The notes under the pieces were generated by a model. It was not told the DNA's origin, searched no databases, and was given only the letters and a program-made list of their open reading frames with translations. Shown one piece after another: positions 28,050-55,105 of a DNA stretch of 60,264 bases. Each line of letters begins with the position of its first letter. Position 1 is the first letter of the stretch. The position numbers and the translations under genes are program-made. This stretch comes from an uncultured Clostridia bacterium (GTDB lineage: Bacteria > Bacillota > Clostridia > Oscillospirales > Ruminococcaceae): positions 1-60,264 of the forward strand of contig CANQCL010000012.1 of the NCBI GenBank assembly GCA_947589215.1, written 5' to 3'.

Positions 28050-28127
28050 CTATTTGTCAAAGCTGGGGTTAAAAGCGTAGAAGTTTTTAGCGTCAAGTCC
28101 GTCCTGAACCATTCGGAGACCTTCGCC
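28050..28127 (-). pseudogene. cotJC: cotJC C-terminal end, severed by insertion
   Basis: Reading leftward from the core GGC GAA (28122-28127), 25 codons spell Gly-Glu then GLRMVQDGLDAKNFYAFNPS and FDK, ending at TAG. This is the C-terminus of clostridial CotJC/manganese-catalase-like spore coat proteins. The preceding part, ending HFQRFGE, lies at 54764-55105. Joining the two at the shared Gly-Glu codons gives a normal sequence in frame. Upstream of the core the frame runs into unrelated element DNA. Confidence 0.85.
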
Positions 28128-28140
28128 TTGACATACAAAA
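28122..28140. repeat. Left att junction of the serine-recombinase element
   Basis: The core TTCGCC (28122-28127) also occurs at 54764-54769. The element arm CCTTGACATACAAAA (28126-28140) is the inverse of TTTTGTACGTCAAGG at the other end, with one difference. The recombinase gene starts 49 bases inward. Confidence 0.85.
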
Positions 28141-28175
28141 GGAAATAAATTCCCAAACTTGCTTAGGTTCAAATT

Positions 28176-29669
28176 CTATAATTTCCATTGGATAGTAACC
28201 TTATCCGATGTAGCGTAAATCACCTTAATCAGCGTATCAGTTAACTGACGCTTGTCCTCGAATGTCAGTTCGTCCCAAGCGGTCAGATGATTATTAATTT
28301 TCTTTGCGGGAATTTCTTTTATCTGTTGTTTTTCTTTAATATGTTCTTCAATTTCACACTTTTGACGGTCAAGCTCAGTAATTCGTTCATTAATGTATCG
28401 GAAAAGCGCATCATCGGAATTTTGCACACGCTCAAGCAGGGAATTGATTTCGTTATCAATTTCAGCCTTTTTTATGTTTAATTCCGTAAGCTCGGTGTTA
28501 GGAACAGACTTCTCTGATTTTGAAAGCGTTTCAAACTGAGCCAGTTTTTTCTTCATTTCATTGTAAATGAGCTTTTCCATTTCGTTTGTATAGATTGTAC
28601 CGGCACCTTTGCAAGCCTTTGCGTTGATTTTATGGGAACACATTAAATATCGGTCTTTGCGTTTATTAAACTGTTTTGCCACAAGAGCATAACCGCACTC
28701 ACCGCATTTAATTTTTCCCGCTAACCAAGTGTTTTTTGCTTTATGAATAGGTCTTATTTGCTTTTGACCCATACATTTTTCACGGCATTTTAACCATAAG
28801 TCTGAATCAATAACACCTTTGTGCGGAGCAAGTACAATGTGACTGCCCTCCAAAACCGTACTTTTTTTACGTTCAGCATCTTGTGCCTTGTAGTTGTAAC
28901 AGCCGTTTACCCCGATAAAATCTGTAGGTGGGTTTACAACATCAACCCCGTGATTTATAAAGAAGTTGTATACATCAAGGTCTGCTTTCACATAAATTGG
29001 GTTAATAAGAATATCCCTTATTCTCGGTCGTTCCCAGTGCTTTCCCCGTTTTTTCAGACCAAGTTTATTCATTTCGTCAAGGATATTGCCGAAAGAAACA
29101 AATGGCTTAGAATACATCTCATATATAAGCCTAATTTGTGATGTCTCTTCATCAATTTGCTCAAACATTGATGTATGAACACCGTTAATAATTGTGGGTA
29201 CTTTTTTAAAGCCATACGGAATCGGACCGCCCATAAAAAAACTTTTCTGACTTCGAGAATAGTATGCGTCTGATACTCTCTTTTGAATAGTTTCACGTTC
29301 AAGCTGAGCAAATACAATACAAATATTAAGCATTGCATTTCCCATAGGCGACGAAGTATCGAATTTCTCAGTAGCAGAAACGAACTGCACATGAAATTTT
29401 CCAAACACCTCCATCATATTAGAAAAATCAAGGATTGAACGGCTTATTCTATCGAGCTTATAGACGATTACCGAATGTATATAGCCTTCTTTAATGTCGT
29501 TCATCATCTGGGTAAACTGCGGACGATTAGTGTTTTTTCCGCTGTAGCCTTTGTCGATATAGGTTTTAAATGTTTCACCTCTCGTTTCGTATTTGCAGAG
29601 TTCGATCTGCTGTTCAATTGAAATACTGTCGATTCTGTCAACCGACTGTCTTGCATAAATTGCAATCAT
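28176..29669 (-). CDS. Large serine recombinase (element 1 integrase)
   Basis: A 497-residue serine integrase. The N-terminal resolvase domain has the catalytic Ser in YARQS (Ser9), with KLDRISRS and the LERETIQKR helix following. The recombinase domain lies near 150-290. A zinc ribbon (CGECG...CSHKINAKACKG) and a coiled coil near 370-450 complete the usual layout. AAGGAG is 8 bases before the ATG, inside a perfect 16-base palindrome. Its stop is 36 bases from the attachment arm, as expected of the enzyme that integrated this element into cotJC. Confidence 0.93.
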   Translation of the reverse strand: MIAIYARQSVDRIDSISIEQQIELCKYETRGETFKTYIDKGYSGKNTNRPQFTQMMNDIKEGYIHSVIVYKLDRISRSILDFSNMMEVFGKFHVQFVSATEKFDTSSPMGNAMLNICIVFAQLERETIQKRVSDAYYSRSQKSFFMGGPIPYGFKKVPTIINGVHTSMFEQIDEETSQIRLIYEMYSKPFVSFGNILDEMNKLGLKKRGKHWERPRIRDILINPIYVKADLDVYNFFINHGVDVVNPPTDFIGVNGCYNYKAQDAERKKSTVLEGSHIVLAPHKGVIDSDLWLKCREKCMGQKQIRPIHKAKNTWLAGKIKCGECGYALVAKQFNKRKDRYLMCSHKINAKACKGAGTIYTNEMEKLIYNEMKKKLAQFETLSKSEKSVPNTELTELNIKKAEIDNEINSLLERVQNSDDALFRYINERITELDRQKCEIEEHIKEKQQIKEIPAKKINNHLTAWDELTFEDKRQLTDTLIKVIYATSDKVTIQWKL

Positions 29670-29675
29670 TATATC

Positions 29676-29697
29676 AGCTCCTTAAGGAGCTGCCGAT
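29676..29697. repeat. Palindrome and end-matched 12-mer near recombinase
   Basis: AGCTCCTTAAGGAGCT (29676-29691) is a perfect 16-base palindrome holding the recombinase ribosome site. GGAGCTGCCGAT (29686-29697) recurs inverted at 54725-54736, 28 bases inside the other end of the element. It could be a control or accessory site. Confidence 0.4.
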
Positions 29698-29728
29698 AGG
29701 ACAAGTATATCATACCGGCTTATCCTTA

Positions 29729-29905
29729 TCAATTGTATTTTGAAAAAATGTCGTAAAGTTCTTCTTCTATTTTTTTTATTATATCTTCTAAAACATTCTC
29801 CTCAATGGGTGTGAGATTTTCAATCTTTATTATTTTTTTCCCTAATATATTTACATTCTCATCTACGCTATAGCCGTTTTTATCAATTTCAACAATAACT
29901 ATCAC
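29729..29905 (-). CDS. Small acidic protein upstream of the recombinase
   Basis: A 58-residue frame starting at a GTG (29905) and ending 60 bases before the recombinase ATG, on the same strand. The product (IVEIDKNGYSVDENVNILGK...) is acidic with a long helical Glu-rich second half. No family is recognised. Position beside a serine integrase makes it a candidate recombination directionality factor, but this is inference only. The GTG has a poor, very close ribosome site. Confidence 0.4.
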   Translation of the reverse strand: MIVIVEIDKNGYSVDENVNILGKKIIKIENLTPIEENVLEDIIKKIEEELYDIFSKYN

Positions 29906-30448
29906 CCCACACTACATTTTATTGAGCTAAAACATGTCCGATTACTGCAATAAAAAAATGGGAAGAGTTTTCTTCTCATTTGTAAAGGGTAAGTAAATTG
30001 ATTTTCGGGTAGTGTGTTATTCAAGTTTTGTTACGTTTTTAATCAATAATAATGTAGGGTTTATTTTTTAAACGAGGTTTTAGAGTTTACCGCTAACAAG
30101 CGAATTTGGATAGCCAAATTCAGTGCTTGGGGAGACATTTCACGAGTGAAAACAGTCTTGAAATTCCTAAATAGAACAATAAAAAAATCGTTGAAGTCCT
30201 TGCCGACAGGCGGTGGTTCATCAACGATTTCATAGTCTTTTTACAAAAGTTTTGTTAGGTTGGTTGCACTAATTGATTTGAAAGTATAGATACCTATAAC
30301 AATTAATTGTATTAATATAATTTTTTTGTAAACTTTTTATAAAACTTTTACAATAAACAAAAAAATTCGACAATCATATATTATAATCATATATGTAAAA
30401 AAATATAAGTTTTTAGAAATCAATAACTTAAAAAAGGAAGTTGATATT
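29906..30448. other. 540-base gene-free region with RNA-like folds
   Basis: No open frame of note. The left part is AT-rich without features; the right part holds the three-hairpin block described at 30098-30245. An AT-rich promoter-like stretch precedes the membrane protein gene at 30449. Confidence 0.5.
30098..30245 (+). ncRNA. Candidate structured RNA, three consecutive stem-loops
   Basis: Stem 1: GAATTTGG-ATAG-CCAAATTC (30102-30121) closed by AAGC/GCTT. Stem 2: TTTCA-CGAG-TGAAA (30138-30151) closed by AGAC/GTCT. Stem 3: AAATCGTTGA (30185-30194) with TCAACGATTT (30231-30240), also paired internally up to a GACA loop, then T-rich sequence. Three perfect nested stems in AT-rich noncoding DNA suggest a functional RNA ending in a terminator. 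The strand is uncertain because stem 3 also has a T run on the minus strand. Confidence 0.4.
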
Positions 30449-31392
30449 ATGGATAACTATGGTATTAAAAAACATTTAAAAGATATTTTAGATAAAATAA
30501 AAGAAAAAATTCGACCGTTTTTTCCTTTATTTTGGGGATTTATTGCAAGTATAATATTTGTTATTGTTATTGGGTTGATTCTTATATTACTTAATTTCGG
30601 TAATGGAAATGTTTATGATTGTCTAAAATCTCTGATAACAGGCGCTAATAGAGATACTTTCGGAGTAAAGATTTTGTTTGTATTTAGAGTTTTCAATGTA
30701 GGTATGATGATTATTATTGCAGTAACGGCCAGTTATGTATATATTTATATATTAAACTATCGTTGTGGAGTAGTTTTTCCAAAATACTTGGTATTAAGAT
30801 TGGTTAAGAAAAATAATAGTGATAAAGTTAAATTAAGTGTTATTATCGGTAATAGGAATAAGCATCTTTTATATAATGTTAAGTGTTATTTAGATTGTGT
30901 ATATATTAAAACGATTAATTATGCAACTGAAGACTGTAATCATTGTGAGATTAAAATAGATGAAGATGAATTATTAGAAAAAAATACTATACATTGTAAT
31001 ATAGCACGAAAAAAGATAACTTCAATAGATAATTTTTATAGATTCTCTGCTAATATAAAAAAAGTACCTAAGAAATTTTTAGAAGACTTTTTGTTAAAAT
31101 CACCAGAAGCATGTAAAATAGATGCGATCAAGATAACAGTGACTGGAAAAACAAATTTTTTGGGTGGAAATTTTCACAAACAAAAAAATATAGTTTAAAT
31201 GATATAATTATTTCATCAAATGATCCTGTACGTGAATTTATGAAGATTAAGAAAACTATAACTGGAAAATCAAAAAAAGTGTTTGACTGGTCCAAGTTTG
31301 GTGAAATGCCTGAGAGTGGAGAAAATGACAGGGAAAAAATCACAGGCGTAATTAATGAGATAATTAAAAAAGATACTAAAGATGCAGTTTGA
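30449..31392 (+). pseudogene. Two-TM membrane protein, frameshifted near its end
   Basis: The frame from 30449 encodes 249 residues: a basic start, two hydrophobic helices (about 28-52 and 78-105), then a soluble domain with several Cys. It stops at 31196. A -1 shift in the run of seven A at 31182-31188 would continue it for about 67 residues (KKYSLNDIIISSNDPVREF...) to 31390-31392. The continuation has matching composition, so the gene probably spans the whole interval. The local sequence A_AAA_AAT is also a possible slippery site. I do not recognise the family. Confidence 0.5.
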
Positions 31393-31714
31393 ATAAAAAT
31401 ATTTACATAAGATAGAGTTTTCGTTAATATACTTGTGTGAATTTCTAAATAAAATCTTTTCGAATGGTGAAAACTTTTAATATTAAAACTTACAATTTGT
31501 ATTAAATTTTATATTATTATTGTTATGGTATAGCTTATAAATATTTTCATTTGAATTACTTAGTATAGTGACATATAGGAAAATTCATTACACATTTTCC
31601 TTTCCGATTTTTATATAATTTTATTTATAAAAAATTGTTAAAGTGGGCAATCAGAACAATCCATGATATAATATATTTATAGCATAGCAAATAATTTCAA
31701 TGGGGTGATTTGAC
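31393..31714. other. Gene-free region with terminator
   Basis: AT-rich. A hairpin AGGAAAAT (31577-31584) with ATTTTCCT (31594-31601) is followed by T-rich sequence and would end the membrane-protein transcript. A TATAAT near 31675 probably belongs to the methyltransferase promoter. Confidence 0.5.
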
Positions 31715-32467
31715 ATGAACAATTTAATGAATTATTATGAAACTCATAATGAAAGTGAACGTCTTTTTAGCGATAAGGCACATCAGCTTGAATGGCTTAC
31801 TACAACACATTTTTTGAAAAAATATATTCCTCAAAATTCAGAGATTTTTGATTGCTGTGCAGGCACAGGACATTACGCGTTTTGGCTTGCCGAGCAAGGA
31901 CATGCTGTAACGGCAGCCGATTTGGTGCAGAAGCATATTGATATAATGGCATCTTCTGAAAAAGCAAAATTATTAAAGGATATTTTTGTGTGTAATTCTA
32001 TAAATATGCCAAATATAAAAGATAATTCTTACGATGTTGTTCTTTGTATGGGAGCATATTATCATACTCATTCATCAGCGGAACGGGAGCAAATCATATC
32101 CGAATGCATCCGCGTATTAAAGCCTGACGGGATATTGGTTGTTGCATATATAAACAGAAACGCAGTCTTTTTAAACCATTTCAAAAGAGACCCTGATACG
32201 GCATTATCAGACGGTGTAATAAATACGGGTGAAAACGGAGTTTTCTATGCTTCTGACTTCAATGAACTTGATTGTTTATGTGAAAAATTAAAATTAACTC
32301 CAATAGCCAATATTGGCACAAGTGGTCAGATTTATATACTTATGAACGAGATAAATGATCTGAACACACAACAGTTTAATGAATTTTTTAATTATCATTT
32401 AAGGGTGTGTCAAGAGCCTTCAATTATAGGTAACAGTATGCACGGATTATATTTTGCTAAAAAGTAA
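31715..32467 (+). CDS. Class I SAM-dependent methyltransferase
   Basis: A 250-residue protein. SAM-binding motif I is IFDCCAGTGHYAFWLAEQG near residue 45, with the acidic residue in VTAADL and the motif IV-like region DVVLCMGAYYH near 112. The arrangement is that of small-molecule methyltransferases (UbiE/bioC type). GGGGTGA precedes the ATG. Its stop lies within a 12-bp perfect hairpin that terminates it. It is a single gene facing the end of pstB. The substrate is not predictable. Confidence 0.8.
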   Translation: MNNLMNYYETHNESERLFSDKAHQLEWLTTTHFLKKYIPQNSEIFDCCAGTGHYAFWLAEQGHAVTAADLVQKHIDIMASSEKAKLLKDIFVCNSINMPNIKDNSYDVVLCMGAYYHTHSSAEREQIISECIRVLKPDGILVVAYINRNAVFLNHFKRDPDTALSDGVINTGENGVFYASDFNELDCLCEKLKLTPIANIGTSGQIYILMNEINDLNTQQFNEFFNYHLRVCQEPSIIGNSMHGLYFAKK

Positions 32468-32492
32468 GGTCTTACATACAAAGACCTTACTT
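32462..32492 (+). terminator. Terminator after the methyltransferase
   Basis: AAGTAAGGTCTT (32462-32473) and AAGACCTTACTT (32481-32492) form a perfect 12-bp stem overlapping the stop codon. Confidence 0.7.
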
Positions 32493-32520
32493 AAACCTTC
32501 ATACGTGCGGCTTGACGTGT

Positions 32521-33198
32521 TCAAGCCGTAATACTCATCATAGTCATCGTCGCGTATAGCAATCCGCATATTCTCGCCGCTTGCTGCATATTGTGCGTTA
32601 CCATAACGATTGTATATTTTTCTTTTAGTTCAACTGCTAAATCTTCGATTTTTGATGTGGAAATAGGGTCAAGTGCGCTCGTCGGCTCGTCCATAAGAAG
32701 AATTTCCGGCTCTACGGCTAAAGCTCTTGCAATGCAAAGTCTTTGCTGCTGACCGCCGCTTAGTCCGAGTGCACTCTTTTTAAGACGATCTTTACATTCG
32801 TCCCAAATCGCCGCTTGTCTTAGGGAACGCTCAACGATTTCATCAAGCTGCACTCCTCTTCTTATTCCGTGAATACGTGGACCGTATGCAACATTATCGT
32901 AAATGCTCATAGGAAAGGGATTTGGCTTTTGAAAAACCATACCGACCTTTTTTCTCAAAATGCTTACGTCAATATCTTTGTAAATGTCAGTTTTATCAAT
33001 GGTTATTTTTCCCTCTATTTTGCAACCCTCGATTAAATCATTCATACGGTTAAGTGTTTTTAAAAAAGTGGATTTGCCGCACCCCGAAGGTCCTATCAAC
33101 GCAGTAATTTGTCTTTCGGAAAGTTCTATGTTGATATTTTTTAGCGCGTGGTTGGCTGTGTACCACAAATTCAAATTTTCAGCACGAATAACTCCCAT
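32521..33198 (-). CDS. pstB: Phosphate ABC transporter ATPase PstB, altered C-terminus
   Basis: A 225-residue ATPase driving phosphate import. Walker [10 protein letters not shown] near 34, signature LSGGQQQRL, Walker B LLMDEPTS and the H-loop [11 protein letters not shown] are intact. The family usually continues for about 40 residues (a SD.TAFF...GRFG type end). Here the sequence after AARI is replaced by about 15 unrelated residues and a stop, so the end has been lost to a frameshift or junction near 32580. Activity may be reduced. AGGAG lies 7 bases before the ATG, which overlaps the pstA stop. Confidence 0.85.
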
Positions 33199-34064
33199 TA
33201 TTTTGCTCCTTTCGCTTTTAGCTTTTTCGCAGCCAGTTTAGAACTCAAATTGATGATAAAGGTTATTAAAAGAAGTATTGCCGCAACTCCAAACGCAATT
33301 TCAAATTCGCCCCGCTCTTTTGCGTACATATAAAGCGCTACGGTAAGTGTTGAACCGGCATTACCTGATTTCACAGCGTCTAAGAGTCCGTAAACTTCGT
33401 TTGCCATACCTGCCGTAAACAAAAGTGCTGCACTTTCTCCTACAATTCTGCCTATTGACAAAATACAGCCTGTAACGATCCCGTCAATGGCAGACGGCAA
33501 TACAACCGTGCGTATCATATACCATTTTCCAGCACCGAGTGCCAGAGAACCCTCACGGTATCCGTTTGGAACTGTTTTTAAGCTCTCTTGTGTTGTTCTG
33601 ATGATTGTAGGAAGTGTCATAATAACAAGTGTAAGACTTCCGGCAAGAAGTGATGTGCCAAGAGAGCAGAATTGCACAAATATGAGCATACCAACCAAAC
33701 CGTAAATAATTGACGGAATACCCGAAAGTGTTTCTGTTGCAAGCTCAATAATACGGACAATTCTTTTGTTTTTGGCATATTCATTTAAGTAAATGGCAGC
33801 ACCAACGCCAATGGGAAGTACAATTACAAGCGTTATCAAAATAATGTAAAGAGTGTTTAGTATATTCGGCAGTATTCCGACAGTTTCACGGACAAGGCTC
33901 GGCTTTTGCGTCAAAAAATCAAGGCTTATATGCGGCAGACCTCTGTATAAGATATAACCGATCATTCCAAGAAGAATCAAGGCTATCGTTCCTGCCGATA
34001 AATACATCAATATATTCAATACCACACTTTTGATTTTTCTGCCAAGTGATATTTTATCCTGCAC
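33198..34064 (-). CDS. pstA: Phosphate ABC transporter permease PstA
   Basis: A 288-residue membrane permease with six hydrophobic segments and the EAA-type loop ([26 protein letters not shown]) that contacts PstB. PstA pairs with PstC to form the phosphate channel. It lies 6 bases after pstC and overlaps pstB by one base (TAATG), a tightly coupled operon. Confidence 0.95.
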
Positions 34065-34070
34065 GAAAGA

Positions 34071-34946
34071 TCACTCCTTATCTCTCTTTACAATTAAATT
34101 CAATACGAGGTTAATAATCAATATAAATACAAACAGTACCAATGCAATAGAAAAAAGAGCTTTTCTCTGCAATCCTGAAGAATATGACATTTCGCTTGCA
34201 ACGGCAGTTGTAAGAAAGCGTACACTTTTGAAAAGTCCGGGCATATTTGCTACATTACCTGATACCATCATAACTGCCATTGCTTCACCCACGCTTCTGC
34301 CAATGCCAAGAACAACTGCTGTAAGTATTCCGCTTTTTGCTGCCGGAACAATCACCTTAAAAATTGTTTCTGTTTTAGTTGCTCCGAGTGCAAGAGACGC
34401 TTCTTCATATTCCTTTGGAACAGATCTGATTGCTGTTTCCGATACAGATATGACGGACGGCAGTATCATAATTGTAAGTACAATTATTGCCGAAAACAAA
34501 TTTGCTCCGTCGGACAAATTAAAGACCTCACGAACCATAGGAACAATGATTATCATACCTACAAGACCGTAAACAACAGACGGTATTCCTGAAAGCAGGT
34601 CAACACAGCTCCTGACGGTTTTCGCTATTTTTTCGTTTGCTGACTTTGCTATAAAGATTGCACACATAAGTCCCAGCGGCACACCAATAAGGATCGCTCC
34701 GAATGTTCCGTACACTGATGTTAGGATAAAAGGTAAAATACCGTAAGACGAAGATGCGGAGGTCGGTGACCAGTTCGTCCCGAATAAGAAGTCGCATATT
34801 CCAATCTCTCTGATGGCAGGTACACCTGACACGCAAAGAAATCCGGTAATGAGAATTACAAAAGCAACAGCTAGAAATCCGCAGAAGGTGAAAATGATGT
34901 TAGTCGATTTTTCAATTATCTTTGCTGTTTTCTTAATTTTACTCAT
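34071..34946 (-). CDS. pstC: Phosphate ABC transporter permease PstC
   Basis: A 291-residue membrane permease. It has the periplasmic loop typical of PstC (FLFGTNWSPTSASSSYGILPF), the conserved LLSGIPSVVYGLVGM and the EAA loop EEASLALGATKTETIFKVIVPAAKSGI. It partners with PstA, and follows pstS by 13 bases. Confidence 0.95.
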   Translation of the reverse strand: MSKIKKTAKIIEKSTNIIFTFCGFLAVAFVILITGFLCVSGVPAIREIGICDFLFGTNWSPTSASSSYGILPFILTSVYGTFGAILIGVPLGLMCAIFIAKSANEKIAKTVRSCVDLLSGIPSVVYGLVGMIIIVPMVREVFNLSDGANLFSAIIVLTIMILPSVISVSETAIRSVPKEYEEASLALGATKTETIFKVIVPAAKSGILTAVVLGIGRSVGEAMAVMMVSGNVANMPGLFKSVRFLTTAVASEMSYSSGLQRKALFSIALVLFVFILIINLVLNLIVKRDKE

Positions 34947-34959
34947 TTGCAGGTTCTCC

Positions 34960-35784
34960 TTATCTTGCTACGGGTACTGCACCTGCTTTTATAATCAAAT
35001 CATCTGCTGAGCCGGAAGTTACAAAGTCAAAGAACGCTTTTGCAGGTTCGGAAAGCTCTGAATTTTTCTTTGTTACGAATACAAAATTACGTTGAATTTT
35101 ATACTCACCGTTTTGGATAGTTTCTGTTGTAGGTGTAACGCCCTCTACATTAACTGCTTTCACTGTATCTTTTACGGACGCTAGCGATGCGTAACCGATT
35201 GCGTTGGGGTTCGAGGCAACCGTCTGAATAACATCTCCCGTTGAGGTAAGCTCCTGCGAATATTTGCATAGATCCTCTGTGCCGGTAATAGATTCAAAGC
35301 CGTCTCTTGTTCCGGAAGCTGCTTCACGTCCTATAAGTACAACAGGTGCGTCGCTGCCGCCGACCTCTTTCCAATTTGTGATTTCGCCTTTATAAAGTGC
35401 GGAGATTTGCTCGATTGTTAGGTCACTAATCTGGTTTTCGGGGTTTACGATTATCGCAATACCGTCAATGGCAATGACTGTTTCTGAAAGCTCTGATTTT
35501 TCCTCGTCTTTCAAATCACGGCTTGAAAGTCCAATGTCACATCTGCCTTTCCCAACTGCCTGAATACCGCTGCCTGAGCCTGTAGGATTGTATGTAATCT
35601 TCACGTCTGGATTTTCTTCCATATACGCCTCAGACAAATATCCGATTACCTTTTCCATTGAAGTTGAGCCGTCTGTTGAAACAGTTCCTACTGTTTCACT
35701 TTTCTTGCTGCTTGTGCTGCCGCAGCCTGTAATTATCACTGAGATCATACCTACTAATGCTAATAAACTTACGATTTTTTTCAT
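34960..35784 (-). CDS. pstS: Phosphate-binding lipoprotein PstS
   Basis: A 274-residue lipid-anchored receptor. The signal peptide ends in a lipobox (VIITGC). The phosphate-binding TDGSTSMEKV and GSGSGIQAV segments and GREAASGTRDGF are typical of PstS. I chose the ATG at 35784 with AAGGAG 10 bases upstream; the GTG at 35793 overlaps that site. It heads pstS-pstC-pstA-pstB under a Pho-box-like array (35852-35891). No phoU is present after pstB. Confidence 0.93.
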   Translation of the reverse strand: MKKIVSLLALVGMISVIITGCGSTSSKKSETVGTVSTDGSTSMEKVIGYLSEAYMEENPDVKITYNPTGSGSGIQAVGKGRCDIGLSSRDLKDEEKSELSETVIAIDGIAIIVNPENQISDLTIEQISALYKGEITNWKEVGGSDAPVVLIGREAASGTRDGFESITGTEDLCKYSQELTSTGDVIQTVASNPNAIGYASLASVKDTVKAVNVEGVTPTTETIQNGEYKIQRNFVFVTKKNSELSEPAKAFFDFVTSGSADDLIIKAGAVPVAR

Positions 35785-35835
35785 AAAAATCACGCTCCTT
35801 AAAATTTTTTATTTCTTAGCTCTTAGCACGACAAC

Positions 35836-36132: not shown

Positions 36133-37044
36133 CTAATTAACTTTTATTTTGTTTCTAGGGTGCTTTGTGGCAAGAATATATTTCTGTTTAGATGAAGTGA
36201 CATGGGTGTAGATTTGAGTGGTTGTAATTGAACTATGACCAAGCATTTTTTGTATGTAGCGAATATCTACATCTTCTTCAAGCAGAAGTGTGGCAAAAGA
36301 GTGTCTGAACATATGTGGCGTAATATTTTTATCATAATCAATCATTTTGGTGTATTTTTTTATTATTTCACGTACAGATTGCTCTGACAGACGCTTGTGA
36401 AGCTTATTTATAAAAAAATAACCTGAAGTCTGAATATCATCTTTAAAAGCAGATTTATAGTTCTTTAAGGCATCTAGCACATCTTTGTTCTCAATTTGTA
36501 TAATTCTTTCCTTAGATCCTTTACCGAATATTTTGACTGTATGATTAATTAAATCGACATCATATGGTGACAGAGAACAAACTTCTGACACTCTTGCTCC
36601 GGTAGCAAAGAGAAATTCTAAAACGGCAATATCTCGAAGAGACATTTTATGGTGATACTCGCTTGAGTTATTGTTAAGCTGAGAGTAAGCTGTTTTTAAA
36701 ATCTTGTTGATAATATTAATCGGAATTGTTTTAGGCAAAATTTTAGGCTCTTTAAAACTAAGTTGAATTTTATCAAACGGATTTATTTCAATAATATCTT
36801 CAAACAGAAGAAATCTTGTAAAGGCTTTCAAAGTAGCAATTTTTCGTTTAACAGTTTTAGGTTTAAAAGTATTATTTAAATGTTCAATATACTGAGTAAG
36901 ATGCTGTTTATCAATAATTGCGTCAGAAAATACTTGATATTGATGTAAATCAATTTTATATGCTTTTAAAGTTTTACTATTCAAGTTTTTATTATTTTTA
37001 CAGTGCCGCAAAAACAAATTAAAGTACACATTTATATTTTCCAT
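36133..37044 (-). CDS. XerC/D-type tyrosine recombinase
   Basis: A 303-residue tyrosine recombinase of Xer size. The N-terminal SAM-like domain (1-95) precedes the catalytic domain with Arg in TGARVSEVC, His-x-x-Arg in HMFRHSFAT, and LGHSSITTTQIYTHV with the nucleophile Tyr. AAAGGA lies 9 bases before the ATG. It is not the conserved chromosomal xer context; it sits alone between the pst and biosynthetic operons inside element 1. It could be an element integrase, matching the orphan tRNA-Trp half at 42959, or an invertase acting on the inverted repeat next to it. Confidence 0.85.
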   Translation of the reverse strand: MENINVYFNLFLRHCKNNKNLNSKTLKAYKIDLHQYQVFSDAIIDKQHLTQYIEHLNNTFKPKTVKRKIATLKAFTRFLLFEDIIEINPFDKIQLSFKEPKILPKTIPINIINKILKTAYSQLNNNSSEYHHKMSLRDIAVLEFLFATGARVSEVCSLSPYDVDLINHTVKIFGKGSKERIIQIENKDVLDALKNYKSAFKDDIQTSGYFFINKLHKRLSEQSVREIIKKYTKMIDYDKNITPHMFRHSFATLLLEEDVDIRYIQKMLGHSSITTTQIYTHVTSSKQKYILATKHPRNKIKVN

Positions 37045-43010: not shown

Positions 43011-43199
43011 AGCCTAACGCCATCTGAACCCATAAGTCCAAATGGCGTTATTTTTATGCCTGGAAAACCTTTATTTTAGGGCATTTCCGGCATTTTTATT
43101 AATGTAAAATTCTATGTCAATAATACAAAAACCTTTAATTCCTGAAAAAAATATTTTAAAACTTGAAATATGAACCCCTTATTCCATTTTTAATTTGAG
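43011..43199. repeat. 189-bp direct repeat, copy 1
   Basis: Nearly identical to 47217-47403. It begins with a tRNA-Trp-type terminator (AACGCCAT at 43016-43023 with ATGGCGTT at 43042-43049, then T run) and ends in the left terminus of the IS3-like element. Confidence 0.9.
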
Positions 43200-47216: not shown

Positions 47217-47403
47217 AGCCTAACGCCATCTGAACCCATAAGTCCAAATGACGTTATTTTTATGCCTGGAAACCTTTATTTTAGGGCATTTCCGGCATTT
47301 TTATTAATGTAAAATTCTATGTCAATAATACAAAAACCTTTAATTCCTGAAAAAAATATTTTAAAACTTGAAATATGAACCCTTTATTCCATTTTAACTT
47401 GAG
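47217..47403. repeat. 187-bp direct repeat, copy 2
   Basis: Nearly identical to 43011-43199, with a few substitutions and single-base gaps. The two copies bracket the IS3-like element and the OLD-type operon, a 4.2-kb segment. The tRNA-Trp half that precedes copy 1 is missing here. Confidence 0.9.
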
Positions 47404-47480
47404 CATTTAAAATTAAATTTATATCGGTTCAAATCCTTTTTTAAAAATATTTTTGGTATCTTTTTTGTCCGCCCTTTCCA

Positions 47481-47563: not shown

Positions 47564-47573
47564 AGATAAAACC

Positions 47574-47604
47574 CGGCTTAAACACTGCATTTAAGCCGAT
47601 TTTT
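47574..47604 (+). terminator. Terminator hairpin
   Basis: CGGCTTAAA (47574-47582) pairs with TTTAAGCCG (47590-47598), then ATTTTT. The core is shared with the valS terminator at 17715-17749. Confidence 0.65.
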
Positions 47605-47704
47605 CCGTCTGTCACATCATCAAAATAGCTAAACTTTATATCTTAATTATTAAAAATAAACAAAAAAGCCTTATATTTTTAACTCAAATTTAGTTATATT
47701 TTTG

Positions 47705-47733
47705 TTGATTAAGATTTTATAAAGTGATATAAT
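47705..47733 (+). promoter_or_regulatory. Promoter upstream of the G-tract ORF and adhesin
   Basis: TTGATT (47705-47710), 17 bases, TATAAT (47728-47733). Transcription from here would include the G tract and reach the adhesin start about 350 bases on. Confidence 0.5.
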
Positions 47734-47762
47734 TTATATAACTAAACGATTATGGTGATATT

Positions 47763-47932
47763 ATGATTTGTGCAAAACACTCAATCCCAATAAATGTAAG
47801 GGGGGGGGGGGCTTAACAGTCCTACCTTTGTTTGCTGTATACAAAATATCTTATTACAATTGCATAAATTTATATGGCGCAGTGTATCTTGAAGGGGATA
47901 TGCTGCTTTTTCTATGTGTAATAATTGTATAG
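47763..47932 (+). pseudogene. Small ORF switched by a 12-G tract
   Basis: An ATG at 47763, about 30 bases after a predicted promoter, opens a frame that enters a run of 12 G (47800-47811). With 12 G it ends at once (TAA, 47814-47816, 17 codons). With 13 G it would stay open for 56 residues to 47932, including a hydrophobic second half. The tract lies about 280 bases upstream of the giant adhesin in the same direction. Such tracts slip during replication and commonly drive phase variation. Translation of this ORF is not proven; the ribosome site is weak. Confidence 0.4.
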
Positions 47933-47982
47933 ACTGTATGATTATGTATCAAAAACAAAAGAATTTATCCCTAATTTTTTTC

Positions 47983-48036
47983 CGCACAGTTTGGGGAGTT
48001 TTAAACGAAAATATATTTGCAAATTTAAACTGTGCG
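47983..48036 (+). promoter_or_regulatory. Leader hairpins before the adhesin
   Basis: CGCACAGTTT (47983-47992) and AAACTGTGCG (48027-48036) form a perfect 10-bp stem in the leader. Just before the start, TTTCC-AGGA-GGAAA (48071-48084) places the ribosome site in a small hairpin. Both could modulate adhesin translation. Confidence 0.4.
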
Positions 48037-48088
48037 TAAATGGAACAGTAAAAATGCTCCAAAAATTTCTTTCCAGGAGGAAACCACT

Positions 48089-51000
48089 ATGAAACATAAG
48101 AAGACAATAAAACTCAACAGAATAACAAACAAATTAATATCAGTATTTCTCAGCCTGTGTATGATTACGTCAATAGGCAGTTCAGCTGTTGCTGATGCCG
48201 CAAGTGCACGTAGCGGTGATTCGTCGTCCTTAGTCGTGGATGTCAATCCCGCAAAGGAATATCCGGACGTGGAGCGGCACACCGTAGCTGAGATGCTAGC
48301 GAACGGCTGCGATGAGATCTATGTACCTTCCGCTCCGGAAGATGCGCCGAACGCGCAATCTGCCAATACCATAGCGGACGCCTTGGCAGAGCTGACGGAC
48401 GGCGGCGTTATATGGCTGACGGCTGACTCGTCCATAGATACGGTCGACTTGATGAATAATGTAACCGTGGCAATCAGTTCCCACGGCTCGACCGCTTATA
48501 CCGTGACCAAATCCGGCGAAAGCGAGAATATGCTGACGCTGTCAGACAAGTCGGAGCTGACGCTGGAAAATGTCGTTATCGACGCTACCAAGAATAAAAA
48601 CGGAAGAACCATTTCTGTCAGCGGCGGCTCTGTCCTCACGCTCGGAAAAGGTGCTGTATTGGAAAACAATATATCCTACGGCGCGGTTTATTCGGACGGC
48701 TCCTCTGTCTGCGTTGACGGTGGAGCAATTCGTAACAACACCGCTGAGGGGGAAGCCGGAACAAAGGAATATCAGCCCAGCGGAACATGGACTGCGGTAA
48801 ACACAAAGTATGTATTCAACGCCGATATAGGGAGCAAGCAGGCACTCGGTGGTGCGATTCTTATGGTAAACGAATCCGCCTTTGAAATGACTTCCGGCGA
48901 GCTCGGCGGAAATAACGCTGCGACGGGAGGTGCGATTTATGCATGGGCTTCGGGTAATATTAAGCTGTACGGAGGCACAGTTTCCGAAAACAAAGCGGAA
49001 TCGTCGGCGGAAAATATCCCCGCGGCAGGAGGCGCAATCTGCGTGGACGGCGGAGCCGAATTCAATGTAATTTCCGAAGTGATTGTTAACGGTGCCGTAT
49101 TCTCTCAAAACAGAGCGAAACAAGGTGGTGCGATTTATCTCGGCATTGATGCAGGAACCGTCGATTTCATCATGACAGGCGGAAAATTTATCGGAAACAG
49201 TTCTACCGGCGACGGATCTGTGATTTACAGTGTAGCTGCGGACGGAGTAATGAATATCGGGGGCAAGAGCACTGTATTCGCTGGTAATAATTCGGCAAGT
49301 AACGGTGCAATCTATCAGGGTATGTATCCGGGAAACAAAAAATCCGATCGTGCCAAGATTTATATCCATGACGGTGCATCGTTTGCAGGTAATTACGCAA
49401 ATAAGGGTTCCTGCTTCTACGCTACCCGAGACGGCGGCATTAATGCTCTGATTCTGGACAGCACGTCATTTACGGATAATGAGACGAAAAATGACGCCGG
49501 CGTCATGCAGTACAATGTTCCGAATTCCGATGTTATTATAAGAAATTCTGTTTTCAAAAATAACCAAGCCGGAAATCGCGGTGGGTGTTTCTACTTCGCA
49601 GTGGACAGCAAAGGAATGACGGCTACAATCAGCGGCTCTACTTTTGAGAAAAACAGTGCAAAAGGAGATGGCGGTGTCCTTCGGGCGTTCCCTCCCGAGT
49701 CAAAACTTATTTTTAAGGACTCGGTCTTTAAGAAGAATACTTCCGGAGGATCCGGCGGCGTTTTCTATTTTCCGGCTGACGGACAAGACGCTGAAATCGA
49801 AATTGATGGTTCTGAGTTTATAGGCAACACAGCTGAAATAGTCGGCGGCACATTTAGAGCAGGTCTTAAAAACTCTGTTATTACAATTAAGGGTGCGTCG
49901 CTTTTCTCTGAAAATACAGCTAAGGTAAATGCGGGAGCCTTCGCTGTATACAGAAAAGAACAAGGTATCGGCGGAACGGTTAATTTGCTCGAAGCGGAGA
50001 TTAAAAATAACCACTGCTATGCCGATTTTTCAAACTATACAGCAAAGGATCTCGTACCAACTCAACACTATAACACCGGCGGCGTTTATATAGGTGAGGA
50101 CGTTGTTCTTAAAACCTACGATATCGAGATCACACAAAATCAGGTAAAATCAGGTTATGAAGGCAACATGATCGGAACGGGAATAGGCGTATGTCCTCAT
50201 GGCACAGTAATACTGAATCCCGAACACGGAGCAAAAATTCACAATAACGGCGATGGCAATGGTATGGATATTCTTGCCGTTCCGTGGGACGAGGTCATCG
50301 ACCACGAGGTTCCTTCCCAACTGTATATCCCCGAAAAAACGCCTGATGGCAAAGACTACAATTGGACAGATTTAAATGGAGATGAAGCCAGAACAGGTCT
50401 GTACTCATGGAACGAAGTTCTGAAAGAAAAAGAAGATGCCGAGCAGGGCATATCCACAGTATCGTTGATGGCTGAATCCGATGGATACACGGGTGAGAAA
50501 TCGCTTGATCCTGTAGGCTTCAAGGCAAACATTGAGGAGCCGAGGTTTAAAACCATGGCGGCCAACAGCACAACAGAGCCAAAAGTATATATTGCGGGCA
50601 ATTCATCGGATTCCGCGTTGTATGGCGGCGGCGGAATGATGGTAAATGGTACGGTCATCGCCGGTGATCTTGAAGTTTCCGTCGAGAAAAAAACCGAGGG
50701 GCTATCCGAAGAGGATAAGAAAACCAAGGAATTTGAATTTGAATTCAGCATTACATATAAGTCGGATTCATATACAGAAGAAAACGCCATGACATCGGGA
50801 TTTAATACTGAAGGCGATGTAGAGATCGATTTTAAGAAAACCGGAGGAGAAATAACAGGGGAAGAAACAGGGAAAATAACTCTGAAAAAATCAGCAACCG
50901 AGGAAAGTGGTGCTTTTTACCCAACATTAAGCTGTACATTCAAACTAAAATCAGATGAGAAAATAACATTCTCCAATTTCAAGGATACAAGTGGATACAG

Positions 51001-54000
51001 CATCTTTTATGATTATAGTTACAGCGAAAATCCTTATTATTTTGAACTAAAGGAGATTGACTCCGGCGGTGCGGAAAGCGTGGAAATCACGAAAAAGGTT
51101 GCTGACACCGAAGTAACCGGCGATATATTTGATCCCGATCACAACTATAGTACCGGTACCGTTCATAAAATCGAATTTACCTGTACGAACACCTTTAAGG
51201 GCAGCCTTACTGTTACTAAGGTACTCGAAGGCGATTATGCCGACGCGAAGAACAAGACGTTCACCTTTACGGTGACCGGACCGAGCTACCCGAATGGTGA
51301 AAAGGTCGAGATCACAGGTGCGAACAGCGTAACGTTGAATGATTTGCTGCCTGGCAAGTACACGGTAGTCGAGGAAAACGCGGAGATTAAAGGCTATAAG
51401 CTGAAAACGAAGATGAATCCAGAAAACGGCGTGGTCGACGTCACGGGCGGAAACGAGGTTACAGTTACCGTCACGAACACTTATGATGTAGAACCGACAG
51501 AGTATTCGCCTCAAGTTAATAAAACTGTAAGAGGAAATGCGCCAAGTGATGAAGAAACCTTTACATTCAACATTAAAGCAAGCGCAGACAATCCTGACGG
51601 AGCAACCCTGCCGACAGATACAACAGCAAATGTCAAGGGAGCAGGAACTGCAAGCTTTGGAAATATTACATTCAGCAAGGTAGGAACTTACAAATTTGAG
51701 ATAAGCGAAACAGCAGGAGAAAGCTTAGGCTGCACTTATGATGATAGTGTATGGACATTGACTGTGGTAGTTGAAAATGTAGATTCGGCTTTGACAGTAA
51801 CAAGTCATACCTATACAAAGGCAGGTGTACAGCCAAACGAAAACAATGCATCTTTTGAAAACATATATTTCCGTCCTGTAAATTTCACACCAAAAGCAAT
51901 AAAGACGCTGATAGGAGCAATACCTCCAAGCGAAGGAACGTTTAGCTTTAGTATAAAGGAAAAAGCAGATAACCCAAGCGGAGCAGTGCTTCCTGAGGAT
52001 ACAACGGCAACAGTAAGGGGAGCAGGAAGCACAAACTTTGGAGATATTACATTTACCAAAGCAGGAACATACAATTTTGAAATCAAAGAAACAAAGGGCA
52101 GTGAAGCAGGTTATACCTATGACGAAAGCGTATGGACGCTTACGGTAGAGGTTGAGGATAACGATTCTCAATTAGAAGTAACGAACTATTCATATGCAAA
52201 AATAGGTGTAATTGCTAACATGACCGGAGCTGAATTCACTAACATTTACAGAACCAATTCCACTACGTATACTCCTCAAGTATCAAAAACCATAACAGGC
52301 TCAACTCCATCAAGTGAAAGCACTTTCACCTTTAACATTACTGCAAGTGAGGAAAATCCTGAGAACGGAGCAATCCTACCGGAAGATAATACGGCAACGG
52401 TAAAGGGCTCGGGAACAGCAAGCTTTGGAAATATTACATTCAGCAAGGCAGGGACATATAACTTTGAAATAAAAGAAACAAAGGGAAATGACGCAGGCTA
52501 TGCCTATGATGAAAGTGTATGGACGCTGACAATAGTAGTTGTTGATAATGAATCACAGCTTGAGGTGCAAAGCTATAGCTATACAAAGGCAGACGGAACA
52601 ACAACCAATGACGGAGCAGCGTTTACTAACACATACAGCGTAGAACCAACAGAGTTTACACCAAAGGTAAACAAAACTGTAAAAGGAGATACTCCAAGCG
52701 ACAAAACCTTTACCTTTAACATTACTGCAAGCGAAGATAATCCTAACGGAGCAAGTCTGCCGACAGATACTTCTGCAACAGTAACAGGTTCAGGAAGCAC
52801 AAACTTCGGCAATATTAAATTTACTAAGGCAGGGACATACAACTTTGAAATCAAAGAGGAACAGGGAAATGAACCCGGTTACAGCTATGACGGAAGTATG
52901 TGGACATTAACAATCACAGTAACAGATGATAATGCACAGCTAAAGGTAAGCAAAGTTGAATATACAAAAGACGGAGCGCAAAGCAGTGATGAAGCGTTAT
53001 TTGAGAACAGCTACAGCACAACAGAGATATCATATGCACCGCAGGTGACAAAGGAGATCACAGGAGATAAAACTCCAAGTGATAAGACATTTACCTTTAA
53101 CATAGAGGCAAGTGAAGACAATCCAAGCGGAGCAGAGATGCCGGAAGACAAAACAGCGGCTGTAAAGGGAGCAGGAAGTGCAAACTTCGGAGATATTACT
53201 TTCACTAAGTCAGGAACATACACGTTTAAGATAAGTGAAACTAAAGGCAATGATGCAGGCTACACTTACGATGAGAGTGTGTATACATTGAAGGTAATAG
53301 TAGAAGATGTAGATTCAGCATTGACGATAAAGAGCCGCACATATGAAAAAGAGGACGGAGAATCAAGCGAGGAGAGAGCGTTATTCACGAATACCTACAG
53401 TGTAGAGCCGACAGAATATGTACCGCAGATTGAAAAAACAGTAACAGGAAATACTCCAAGTGATGAAACATTTACATTTAATATTAAGGCAAGTGAAGAC
53501 AATCCAAGCGGAGCAGAGATGCCGACAGATACTTCTGCGACTGTAACAGGCTCAGGAAATGCAAGCTTTGATAAAATTACCTTTACCAAAGCAGGAACAT
53601 ACACATTCGAGATAAGTGAAGAAAAGGGAAATGCATTTGGTTACACTTATGATGATAGTGTATGGACGCTGACGGTAGTAGTTGTTGATAATGAATCAAA
53701 ACTGGAAGTACAAAGTCACAAATACACAAAATCAGACGGAACGGCAAACGAAGATAAGGCAGAATTTGAGAACATTTACAGTTCGGGAAGTCTGACTATA
53801 AGCAAGGTCGTTACAGGTAATGCAGGGGATAAGAACAAGGAGTTCACCTTTACTGTAACGCTCACAGATACTAACGGTGATTCGCTTGATGGAGAGTACA
53901 GCTATACAGGCTCTAAGGAAGGAACTATAAAGAGCGGAGGAGAGATAAGTCTCAAGGATGGAGAAAGTGTAACGATAAGCGGACTTCCGATAGGAACGAA

Positions 54001-54439
54001 GTACATGGTAGTTGAGGCTGAGGCAAACAAGGACGGATACACGACAACATCAAAGGGTGAGAGCGGAGAGATATCGGAAAAGGAGCAAAAGGCTGAGTTT
54101 ACGAACAGCAAGAACACAGAGCCTACAGAGCCGACTAATCCGACAAGCCCTACAAATCCAACTAATCCAACCGTTCCAACTAATCCGACTAGTCCAACAG
54201 AGCCCAAGAAAACAACTACAACAAAGAGAACAGAAAGCAATCCTCCATACAGCAAGACAAACAGACCAAAAAGCAACAATAACAATGCAAATGGCGGAAA
54301 CAACGGAAACACACCGAACACGGGAAGTGAGGCACAAGGTAAATTGCCATTAGCATTCTTAGTGACATTCTTGCTAGGACTGAATACTGTTTACTTCTCT
54401 TTCAGGAGAAGAAAGTTTAAAGGCAGGAAGGCTAAGTAG
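48089..54439 (+). CDS. Giant sortase-anchored adhesin with isopeptide domains
   Basis: A 2116-residue surface protein; the ATG has AGGAGG 8 bases upstream. Order: long signal peptide (1-40, ending near AVADAASA), a right-handed beta-helix of GGAI/GGVF-type turns (about 120-740), a linker domain (760-1030), a Cna-B-like domain (SLTVTKVLEGDY..., about 1035-1134), six Spy0128/FctA-type isopeptide domains (about 1135-1898), a second Cna-B-like domain (1899-2010), a Pro/Thr wall-spanning stretch and a sortase signal TPNTG, hydrophobic helix and RRRKFKGRK. Domain Lys (VNKT), Glu (FEIKE) and Asn (FENIY) fit intramolecular isopeptide bonds. The first 3 kb are visibly richer in G+C than the repeats, so the gene looks mosaic. 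It is followed by a terminator. Confidence 0.88.
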   Translation: MKHKKTIKLNRITNKLISVFLSLCMITSIGSSAVADAASARSGDSSSLVVDVNPAKEYPDVERHTVAEMLANGCDEIYVPSAPEDAPNAQSANTIADALAELTDGGVIWLTADSSIDTVDLMNNVTVAISSHGSTAYTVTKSGESENMLTLSDKSELTLENVVIDATKNKNGRTISVSGGSVLTLGKGAVLENNISYGAVYSDGSSVCVDGGAIRNNTAEGEAGTKEYQPSGTWTAVNTKYVFNADIGSKQALGGAILMVNESAFEMTSGELGGNNAATGGAIYAWASGNIKLYGGTVSENKAESSAENIPAAGGAICVDGGAEFNVISEVIVNGAVFSQNRAKQGGAIYLGIDAGTVDFIMTGGKFIGNSSTGDGSVIYSVAADGVMNIGGKSTVFAGNNSASNGAIYQGMYPGNKKSDRAKIYIHDGASFAGNYANKGSCFYATRDGGINALILDSTSFTDNETKNDAGVMQYNVPNSDVIIRNSVFKNNQAGNRGGCFYFAVDSKGMTATISGSTFEKNSAKGDGGVLRAFPPESKLIFKDSVFKKNTSGGSGGVFYFPADGQDAEIEIDGSEFIGNTAEIVGGTFRAGLKNSVITIKGASLFSENTAKVNAGAFAVYRKEQGIGGTVNLLEAEIKNNHCYADFSNYTAKDLVPTQHYNTGGVYIGEDVVLKTYDIEITQNQVKSGYEGNMIGTGIGVCPHGTVILNPEHGAKIHNNGDGNGMDILAVPWDEVIDHEVPSQLYIPEKTPDGKDYNWTDLNGDEARTGLYSWNEVLKEKEDAEQGISTVSLMAESDGYTGEKSLDPVGFKANIEEPRFKTMAANSTTEPKVYIAGNSSDSALYGGGGMMVNGTVIAGDLEVSVEKKTEGLSEEDKKTKEFEFEFSITYKSDSYTEENAMTSGFNTEGDVEIDFKKTGGEITGEETGKITLKKSATEESGAFYPTLSCTFKLKSDEKITFSNFKDTSGYSIFYDYSYSENPYYFELKEIDSGGAESVEITKKVADTEVTGDIFDPDHNYSTGTVHKIEFTCTNTFKGSLTVTKVLEGDYADAKNKTFTFTVTGPSYPNGEKVEITGANSVTLNDLLPGKYTVVEENAEIKGYKLKTKMNPENGVVDVTGGNEVTVTVTNTYDVEPTEYSPQVNKTVRGNAPSDEETFTFNIKASADNPDGATLPTDTTANVKGAGTASFGNITFSKVGTYKFEISETAGESLGCTYDDSVWTLTVVVENVDSALTVTSHTYTKAGVQPNENNASFENIYFRPVNFTPKAIKTLIGAIPPSEGTFSFSIKEKADNPSGAVLPEDTTATVRGAGSTNFGDITFTKAGTYNFEIKETKGSEAGYTYDESVWTLTVEVEDNDSQLEVTNYSYAKIGVIANMTGAEFTNIYRTNSTTYTPQVSKTITGSTPSSESTFTFNITASEENPENGAILPEDNTATVKGSGTASFGNITFSKAGTYNFEIKETKGNDAGYAYDESVWTLTIVVVDNESQLEVQSYSYTKADGTTTNDGAAFTNTYSVEPTEFTPKVNKTVKGDTPSDKTFTFNITASEDNPNGASLPTDTSATVTGSGSTNFGNIKFTKAGTYNFEIKEEQGNEPGYSYDGSMWTLTITVTDDNAQLKVSKVEYTKDGAQSSDEALFENSYSTTEISYAPQVTKEITGDKTPSDKTFTFNIEASEDNPSGAEMPEDKTAAVKGAGSANFGDITFTKSGTYTFKISETKGNDAGYTYDESVYTLKVIVEDVDSALTIKSRTYEKEDGESSEERALFTNTYSVEPTEYVPQIEKTVTGNTPSDETFTFNIKASEDNPSGAEMPTDTSATVTGSGNASFDKITFTKAGTYTFEISEEKGNAFGYTYDDSVWTLTVVVVDNESKLEVQSHKYTKSDGTANEDKAEFENIYSSGSLTISKVVTGNAGDKNKEFTFTVTLTDTNGDSLDGEYSYTGSKEGTIKSGGEISLKDGESVTISGLPIGTKYMVVEAEANKDGYTTTSKGESGEISEKEQKAEFTNSKNTEPTEPTNPTSPTNPTNPTVPTNPTSPTEPKKTTTTKRTESNPPYSKTNRPKSNNNNANGGNNGNTPNTGSEAQGKLPLAFLVTFLLGLNTVYFSFRRRKFKGRKAK
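51491..53782 (+). repeat. Six tandem isopeptide-domain repeats (about 380 bp each)
   Basis: Repeats start near 51491, 51872, 52259, 52644, 53021 and 53406. Each encodes about 127 residues with the shared frame PQV.K...G..PS, DNP.GA, GTY.FEI.E, YD.SVWTL and a final F.N.Y. Nucleotide similarity is high enough for recombination to change copy number. Confidence 0.9.
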
Positions 54440-54450
54440 CAATAAATAAT

Positions 54451-54490
54451 AAAAGCCGTATGTGAACGATATCGTTTGTATGCGGCTTTT
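54451..54490 (+). terminator. Terminator after the adhesin
   Basis: AAAAGCCGTAT (54451-54461) pairs with ATGCGGCTTTT (54480-54490, one G-T pair), then T-rich sequence. Confidence 0.8.
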
Positions 54491-54763
54491 GCCTTTTTAT
54501 GTTAAAGAAAGGATGCCTGATTCTTACATTTCAAACCCATCTGTTATCCCACTCAACCTAGCTGTGTCCTTTTTAACATAATACAATAACACTAGTTAGA
54601 TGTGATGTTTAAAAATAAGTCGGTAGATGCTTTATGTTTCAACCGATTTTCTTTTATAACAAAAACAAATTTTCAACACGCACAATTTAGTGTGTATTGA
54701 AAATTTGTAATAAAAATCATATTAATCGGCAGCTCCGTTTTTGTACTATTTTGTACGTCAAGG
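54491..54763. other. Gene-free right end of element 1
   Basis: No coding frame. A perfect 12-bp stem ACAAATTTTCAA (54665-54676) with TTGAAAATTTGT (54697-54708) lies here, then the 12-mer ATCGGCAGCTCC (54725-54736), which matches in inverse orientation the sequence by the recombinase start, then the attachment arm TTTTGTACGTCAAGG (54749-54763). Confidence 0.5.
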
Positions 54764-54769
54764 TTCGCC
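54749..54769. repeat. Right att junction of the serine-recombinase element
   Basis: Arm TTTTGTACGTCAAGG (54749-54763) followed by core TTCGCC (54764-54769). Together with the left junction it rebuilds an attP with inverted 15-bp arms, and the outer flanks rebuild cotJC in frame. Confidence 0.85.
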
Positions 54770-55105
54770 AAACCTCTGGAAGTGAACTATCTCACGTTCT
54801 CTTAGGAATTTTATAGGATCACGAACATCAGGGTCATCTGCAAGCCTTAGAATGTTATCATAAGTTAGACGAGCTTTTTGCTCTGCAGCAAGATCTTCTG
54901 TTAAATCTGTAATAGGATCTCCGGTTGATTGGAAAGTTGCAGCGGAGAACGGCATACCAGATGCAGCTTGGGGATATAATCCCGTTGTGTGGTCTACAAA
55001 ATATGTGTCAAATCCGCTTTCTTTAATTTCTTTAATTGAAAGATTTCTTGTGAGCTGATATACTATTGCGCTTACTATCTCCATATGTCCAAGTTCGTTC
55101 GTTCC
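54758..55105 (-). pseudogene. cotJC: cotJC middle fragment, cut at both ends
   Basis: From GGA (55103-55105) the frame reads GTNELGHMEIVSAIVYQLTR, then a region with DTYFVDHTTGLYPQAASGMPF, TGDPITDLTEDLAAEQKAR and FLREREIVHFQRFGE. These are hallmarks of CotJC/manganese-catalase-like ferritin-fold coat proteins, including Glu and His metal ligands. It then meets the element 1 arm and stops after one Pro codon. The C-terminal end is at 28050-28127. The N-terminal part, which normally ends in an IGTEE-type helix here, is missing and should lie beyond the second element, outside the window. Confidence 0.88.

Follow-up and report, generated by a model that had tools for sequence, protein, structure and literature searches.

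The spore-coat gene cotJC as a recurrent target of serine-integrase elements in Oscillospirales: a candidate case of gene restoration by excision

The gene cotJC, whose product CotJC is the predicted manganese catalase of the spore coat, is split in the genome of an uncultured Clostridia bacterium (family Ruminococcaceae, order Oscillospirales) by a 26,636-bp element that carries a large serine integrase, and the gene is likewise split, at four fixed addresses, in more than 40% of the sampled genomes having cotJC. The stretch of DNA that was analysed, here called the window, comprises the 60,264 nucleotides at positions 1 to 60,264 of contig CANQCL010000012.1 (assembly GCA_947589215.1, genome G000). 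We interpret cotJC as a multi-site integration target whose splits are of the same kind as the skin split of sigK, with the elements being excised when CotJC is needed, and we put the probability of this reading at about 65%. Its component claims differ in strength. Judging from the sequence, the breaks almost certainly represent insertions by serine integrases at bacterial attachment (attB) sites; re-joining of the exons often enough to keep cotJC functional is likely; and regulated excision in the mother cell, which is proposed by analogy with known systems, is favored by a modest degree.

In the window, the element (element C; 28128-54763, no strand assigned) lies between exon 4 of cotJC (28050-28127, minus strand), which encodes the C-terminal 25 codons as GEGLRMVQDGLDAKNFYAFNPSFDK followed by the stop codon, and exon 3 (54764 to about 55105 [55108], minus strand), which covers CotJC residues about 62-175 and reads GTNELGHMEIV...HFQRFGE. 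Exon 4 agrees with the CotJC C-terminus in three genomes of the same genus (G003, G005, and G007). Both junctions hold the core GGCGAA on the minus strand (TTCGCC on the plus strand), at 28122-28127 on the exon 4 side and at 54764-54769 on the exon 3 side. The two half-arms of the phage-type attachment site (attP), TTTTGTACGTCAAGG at 54749-54763 and CCTTGACATACAAAA at 28126-28140 (neither assigned a strand), are inverse copies of each other with one mismatch, and the latter is conserved in G010, G011, and G012. When the flanks are joined at GGCGAA, they yield HFQRFGEGLRMVQD in frame; the full product of this joining is HFQRFGEGLRMVQDGLDAKNFYAFNPSFDK followed by a stop. Hence the left and right attachment sites (attL and attR) share a short core, the attP arms are inverted, and joining restores attB, as is characteristic of large serine integrases. 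The original prediction, which was made from the letters of the window, had described a cotJC split by a 26.6-kb serine-integrase element, with TTCGCC at both junctions, attP-like inverse arms differing at one position, and a reading frame restored by precise excision, and all of these features are present in the sequence.

Two details of that prediction required revision. The recombinase gene had been said to begin beside the left junction; it is instead the 3' end of the gene encoding IntC, a 497-aa large serine integrase with Resolvase, Recombinase, and zinc-ribbon domains (28176-29669, minus strand), that lies there, 49 bp from exon 4. Moreover, while the C-terminal and middle pieces of CotJC do adjoin as had been proposed, the split is not into two fragments, as the middle piece is cut again at approximately 55105 and the N-terminal exon is found on another contig (C9) of the same genome. 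The comparison with relatives that had been suggested as a check showed an empty homologous site C in G003 and G005, with the uninterrupted protein there that the joined window flanks predict. Neither of the two findings that had been named as speaking against the split was obtained: the two fragments are adjacent parts of one protein, and the relatives have empty homologous sites. A search of the window's own genome turned up a single further catalase gene (C1:79933-80547), a paralog with 34% identity to CotJC and not an intact cotJC. When cores were sought automatically by the longest common string, the results were plausible for most cases at site A and for several at sites B and C; in the remaining cases, including site C of the window, the matches were spurious, and the window site was then joined at an anchored core.

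Among 15 genomes of the genus, cotJC is split in 10, at three sites, and uninterrupted in five (G001, G002, G007, G008, and G014); site A is occupied in 8/15, site B in 6/15, and site C in 7/15. In G012 all three sites are occupied, and joining its four exons at the three cores gives a complete 198-aa CotJC, such that the frame regained on precise excision extends there to the full gene. Relatives of the integrases, counted at E <= 1e-60, were found in seven (IntA), three (IntB), and six (IntC) of the 15 genomes, the IntC count including the window's own genome and two fragments at contig ends; for the occupant of site B in G004, G005, and G013, no integrase was identified. The domain of SpoIVA is full length in 15/15 genomes, so that the hosts do possess sporulation genes, and the manganese-catalase paralog is full length in 9/9 genomes where it was found. 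Since both of these are full length, cotJC is singled out among the three.

Broader surveys gave the same picture. Using an intact CotJC as the query, matches were found in 145 of 217 genomes of the family; the 139 that could be classed from the matches listed (six remained unclassed) comprise 71 full-length genes, six of a shorter subtype, and 62 broken genes. A total of 69 of the 75 broken edges fall into four intervals along the gene (site A, 13; site B, 32; site D, 10; site C, 14); because these intervals were drawn after inspection of the data, the P value for this clustering has descriptive value only. No site-D case occurs in the window's genus. In a sample of the order restricted to genomes with >= 90% completeness, 128/157 had a match, and the 119 classed genomes (nine unclassed; 12 of the 119 belonging to the family surveyed separately) include 66 full-length, three short-subtype, and 50 broken genes across 14 families, with 57 of 62 edges in the four intervals defined for the family. 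SpoIVA, by comparison, matched in 183/217 family genomes and was full length in all 150 of the matches listed (149 genomes); of the 34 genomes outside these, two (G023 and G165) score weakly and may be partial. In some genomes the exons share a contig, being 17.7 kb apart in G130 (listed as one contig) and 91 kb apart in G027, while in G202 a single contig holds three exons and two elements. The recurrence of cuts at the same four places suggests that cotJC must be re-spliced at the DNA level in order to work.

The integrases sort by site. We built a tree from 43 integrases beside cotJC exons (at most about 300 bp from the exon edge, except for G215 at 2.7 kb) and six phage integrases; six of 49 rows were left off, namely four duplicates, one truncated integrase, and one located 3.3 kb from the exon. 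Integrases at sites A (n=14, support 100/100), C (n=12, 99/94), and D (n=4, 100/100) form one group each, and those at site B (n=13) form two groups, one of which includes integrases from two phages, one of Paenibacillus larvae and one of Dorea. The tree requires seven site changes, as compared to a mean of 28 after shuffling, with no count as low in 200 shuffles. Part of this signal comes from near-copies inside the genus; integrases of other genera at the same site, which are 35-61% identical to the genus type, sort alike, the small second site-B group being more distant. The domain combination seen in IntC was also found in IntA, IntB, and one site-D integrase. For the genus integrases found, the gene is always next to the downstream exon and in the same orientation; as a general rule this was abandoned because it fails in the family (for example, in G096, G110, and G215).

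The attachment sites lie at codons ~31-33 (A), ~62-66 (B), ~133-140 (D), and ~173-176 (C) of the ~600-bp gene. CotJC is homologous to manganese catalase, as supported by PF05067 and by alignment to 1jku in which the metal-ligand positions align; with the residue numbers that we take to be those of the 1jku ligands, the CotJC ligands are E35, E65, H68, E136, and H169. All four sites are at most about six codons away from metal ligands, which is most simply read as integrases settling on DNA kept constant by selection.

Exon sequences point to maintenance of the split genes. The median ratio of nonsynonymous to synonymous substitution rates (dN/dS) of exon 3 is 0.010 (96 internal codons away from the attachment sites; 28 pairs among eight split genomes), compared with 0.087 for IntA and 0.103 for IntC. 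Exons were examined from each of the 70 split genomes in the genus and family samples, although not every exon of each; only two genomes (G041 and G153) have stops inside an exon body, those in G006, G012, G137, and G204 fall beyond the junction, and local alignments can stop short of a damaged stretch, such that mild decay may escape. A contrasting case is G014, where an intact cotJC is accompanied by a decayed partial copy that terminates in a site-C arm (L075 1834-2189 and 4602-5198). Within its exon, this redundant relic has a frame shift and no fewer than six amino-acid changes, and it illustrates what the absence of selection does. In addition, a position within 300 bp of a contig start was found for 12 of 111 split fragments and for 0/71 intact genes (only contig starts were counted), which fits the coexistence of excised and integrated forms; mixed strains would give the same pattern.

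In the mechanism that we propose, large serine integrases of several separate clades each use one of four short conserved stretches in cotJC to insert prophages or cargo islands, with each insertion parting two exons. The split would be harmless in growing cells. When CotJC is needed in the mother cell, recombination between attL and attR at the shared core would rejoin the exons in frame, with excision timed to sporulation and presumably controlled by directionality factors; the spore would retain the unexcised chromosome, excision being confined to the mother cell. A more far-reaching version, for which we consider the case evenly balanced, is that cotJC represents an order-wide DNA-splicing locus, in which up to three unrelated elements with their own integrases would all be excised within one mother-cell generation to give a working manganese catalase, and in which the sites near the metal ligands would be addresses held by selection that hardly drift.

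The elements themselves are diverse. Element C is a cargo island without recognised phage structural genes: among 20 chosen open reading frames (ORFs), searches against Pfam and PHROGs found no capsid, portal, or tail genes, and a lone match to a terminase small subunit is weak (E 0.00018) and falls on the helix-turn-helix of a transposase. By this standard, element C does not qualify as a prophage. Its cargo includes an ABC transporter, methyltransferases, and an AMP-binding enzyme. It also encodes a tyrosine integrase (36133-37044), present in addition to the serine integrase, as well as an IS3-type transposase, an AAA_15 ATPase, and a surface protein of 2135 aa that contains FctA isopeptide domains or repeats (48032-54439, plus strand). 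A 189-bp direct repeat (97% identical; 43011-43199 and 47217-47403) brackets a stretch of approximately 4 kb that holds the transposase and the ATPase. The site-C element in G130 (L193, 1313-13069) carries surface-polymer genes, i.e., CDP-glycerol glycerophosphotransferases, a Polysacc_synt protein, and an acyltransferase. Small site-A elements in G110 (L188, 2.6 kb), G142 (L190, 3.7 kb), and G025 (L191, 6.2 kb) consist of an integrase, an Amidase_3 enzyme, and a few further genes; a role of the amidase in mother-cell lysis is conceivable.

Among virus contigs, a cotJC exon lies near the integrase in 6/31 IntA-type, 4/28 IntB-type, and 5/9 IntD-type loci, and one viral sequence (IMGVR_UViG_2593339269_000002) carries two integrases, IntA next to exon 2 and, farther along, IntB next to an exon ending at site D. 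Of the remaining IntA-type loci, four (L275, L292, L293, and L294) show an attP-like site that includes the site core, and their examined stretch lacks cotJC, and 21 have neither exon nor attP-like site, some of these contigs ending at the integrase; one IntB-type locus (L302; 1/18 tested) also has such a site without cotJC. From their sequence, these loci look like free forms. The scoring of attP-like sites covered 27 of the 31 IntA-type loci, and the arm scores of the four loci above (9-12 of 12) were also reached at 34 of 1620 random positions; the attP reading therefore rests on core, place, and arms jointly. The attP of element C, searched as an exact pattern, had no matches in viral contigs, and these contigs contained no relatives of site-C integrases (window IntC and G037 IntC); thus, no free forms were found for site-C elements. 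In PQ006094, a circular phage from the rodent gut whose integrase is IntA-like, no site-A core follows the integrase.

The window genome carries further breaks of cotJC. Exon 3 is cut a second time at the site B core region (GGAACGAACGAA; 55094-55105, minus strand), at the same place as in G003 and G012. Beyond it begins element B, which is prophage-like and runs past the contig end (55106-60264, no strand assigned); it encodes IntB, a 537-aa large serine integrase (55166-56779, minus strand) with relatives at the same site in G003 and G012, and a phage-type transcriptional regulator (56835-57440, minus strand; best match phrog_8, E 1.2e-21). Tandem repeats of ~54 bp are located at 59245-59620, inside a 308-aa ORF of element B. 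The N-terminal exon 1 (C9:53891-53983) lies directly behind cotJA-cotJB, of which cotJB was identified by search and cotJA was recognised in the sequence; after this exon come siphophage genes for tail, head, and terminase. The cotJC of this genome thus carries at least two elements, and probably three.

Several observations weigh against excision that keeps cotJC in working order. Excision of the elements from cotJC is inferred from sequence, and promoter-like sites before IntC number 4 as compared to 2.4 +/- 1.5 expected, i.e., there is no excess over chance. Stops inside the exon body occur in two of the 70 split genomes, G041 and G153, the latter (L349) with an exon-2-like stretch containing stops directly before a clean exon 3. 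Exons on one contig may lie in swapped order (G158, L197) or in opposite orientation (G113:C83, G019:C23). In G009, exon 1 is on another contig and the site-A integrase is ~2 kb from a prmA-like host gene (identified by eye) and 3.5 kb from the host spoIVA (L077 6099-12510), an arrangement that represents a rearrangement or misassembly. Silent divergence of IntC is near-flat (pS 0.157-0.174) across hosts that differ by 0.15-0.60; the element thus spread recently, and the low dN/dS of the exons may mostly predate insertion. Vertical inheritance of the elements within the genus was rejected on this basis, together with IntA divergence that does not track host genes. In Clostridioides difficile, catalase activity was reportedly lower in mutants of cotCB and cotD, two CotJC-like genes, with no significant coat defect (PMC11222575), and loss of CotJC may therefore be cheap. 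Finally, neither exon 2 (the ~30 codons between the C9 exon and exon 3) nor IntA, its partner in relatives, was found in the G000 assembly.

This last observation raises an alternative that concerns G000 and is compatible with any general model, namely that its cotJC is permanently broken by fusion or deletion of the site-A and site-B prophages, which would have removed exon 2 and IntA. We regard this as a serious possibility with somewhat less than an even chance. The assembly in which both are missing is rated 99.99% complete, so this copy may be beyond repair, and the late phage genes on C9 and the early phage genes at the end of C12 would read as one collinear prophage. On the other hand, exon 3 is clean, and an unassembled gap fits equally well, as the ends of C9 and C12 do not overlap; joining these contigs by overlap was rejected for the same reason.

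With regard to general models, one alternative to programmed excision is that cotJC is a dispensable and cheap landing site, that insertion amounts to a knock-out, and that excision is incidental to prophage induction. The elements are mobile and recently spread, the genome has a second manganese catalase, and both the C. difficile mutants and the stops in G041 and G153 are as this model would have it. We nevertheless consider it unlikely, because at an occupancy of 42-45% more decay would be expected of knocked-out genes than stops in just 2/70 genomes, and because the redundant G014 relic did decay. Less likely still is that elements come and go rapidly in vegetative cells, with selection acting on the unoccupied state and no control by sporulation. 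Such turnover would account for the uniformly low IntC divergence and for the clustering of fragments at contig starts, as would be expected from mixed forms, but contig breaks could also come from mixed strains in metagenomes, and it leaves unexplained why a sporulation gene is hit while SpoIVA and the paralog are spared. Assembly artefacts, i.e., contig or binning errors, have a negligible chance of explaining the breaks even though many exons lie on separate contigs of draft or metagenome assemblies, given that site C lies within one contig in the window, that exons share a contig in G130 and G202, and that the integrase clade found next to the exon differs from site to site.

The recurrence of splits in one ~600-bp gene makes the evolution of programmed excision testable by comparison, including which elements are mendable, which decay, and how several share one gene. 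The splits also supply natural integrase/attB pairs, and in many gut genomes cotJC may be listed by automatic annotation as absent or as a pseudogene.

Comparison with known systems places cotJC beside other interrupted sporulation genes, namely sigK, spsM, spoVFB, spoVR, gerE, and yabG (PMC4191935, PMC5595907, PMC10747680). Our literature search, which covered few subscription journals, found no report of an interrupted cotJC as such a target, and term searches of the available texts found no cotJC in PMC4191935 and no cotJ in PMC5595907 and PMC10747680. In C. difficile, the phage phi027 is integrated adjacent to a CotJC-like gene, which is not described there as interrupted (PMC11222575). 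The skin element in sigK of Bacillus subtilis and C. difficile (PMC4191935, PMC10747680) resembles the elements described here in that a serine-recombinase element lies in a mother-cell sporulation gene whose frame is restored by precise excision; by contrast, cotJC encodes a coat catalase rather than a sigma factor, has four sites and up to three elements, and its excision is deduced. SP-beta in spsM (PMC4191935) is likewise a prophage in a spore-envelope gene, with a core and inverted repeats, and its excision in the mother cell has been demonstrated; there, however, one element occupies one gene, whereas cotJC takes prophages as well as non-phage islands at several sites. The gin element in gerE of Bacillus cereus (PMC5595907), a 28.6-kb non-phage island in a very small sporulation gene, is comparable to the 26.6-kb element C, although gin has three serine recombinases for one split while every element in cotJC comes with its own. 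The same principle is seen in other sporulation genes, with vfbin interrupting spoVFB and yin interrupting yabG (PMC10747680); both are single elements, and yin, which its authors called unique, is not recurrent across an order in the way that the cotJC splits are. Element-split sporulation genes in the literature examined are thus single and scattered cases, while cotJC is split by integrases of several clades, carried by phages and islands alike.

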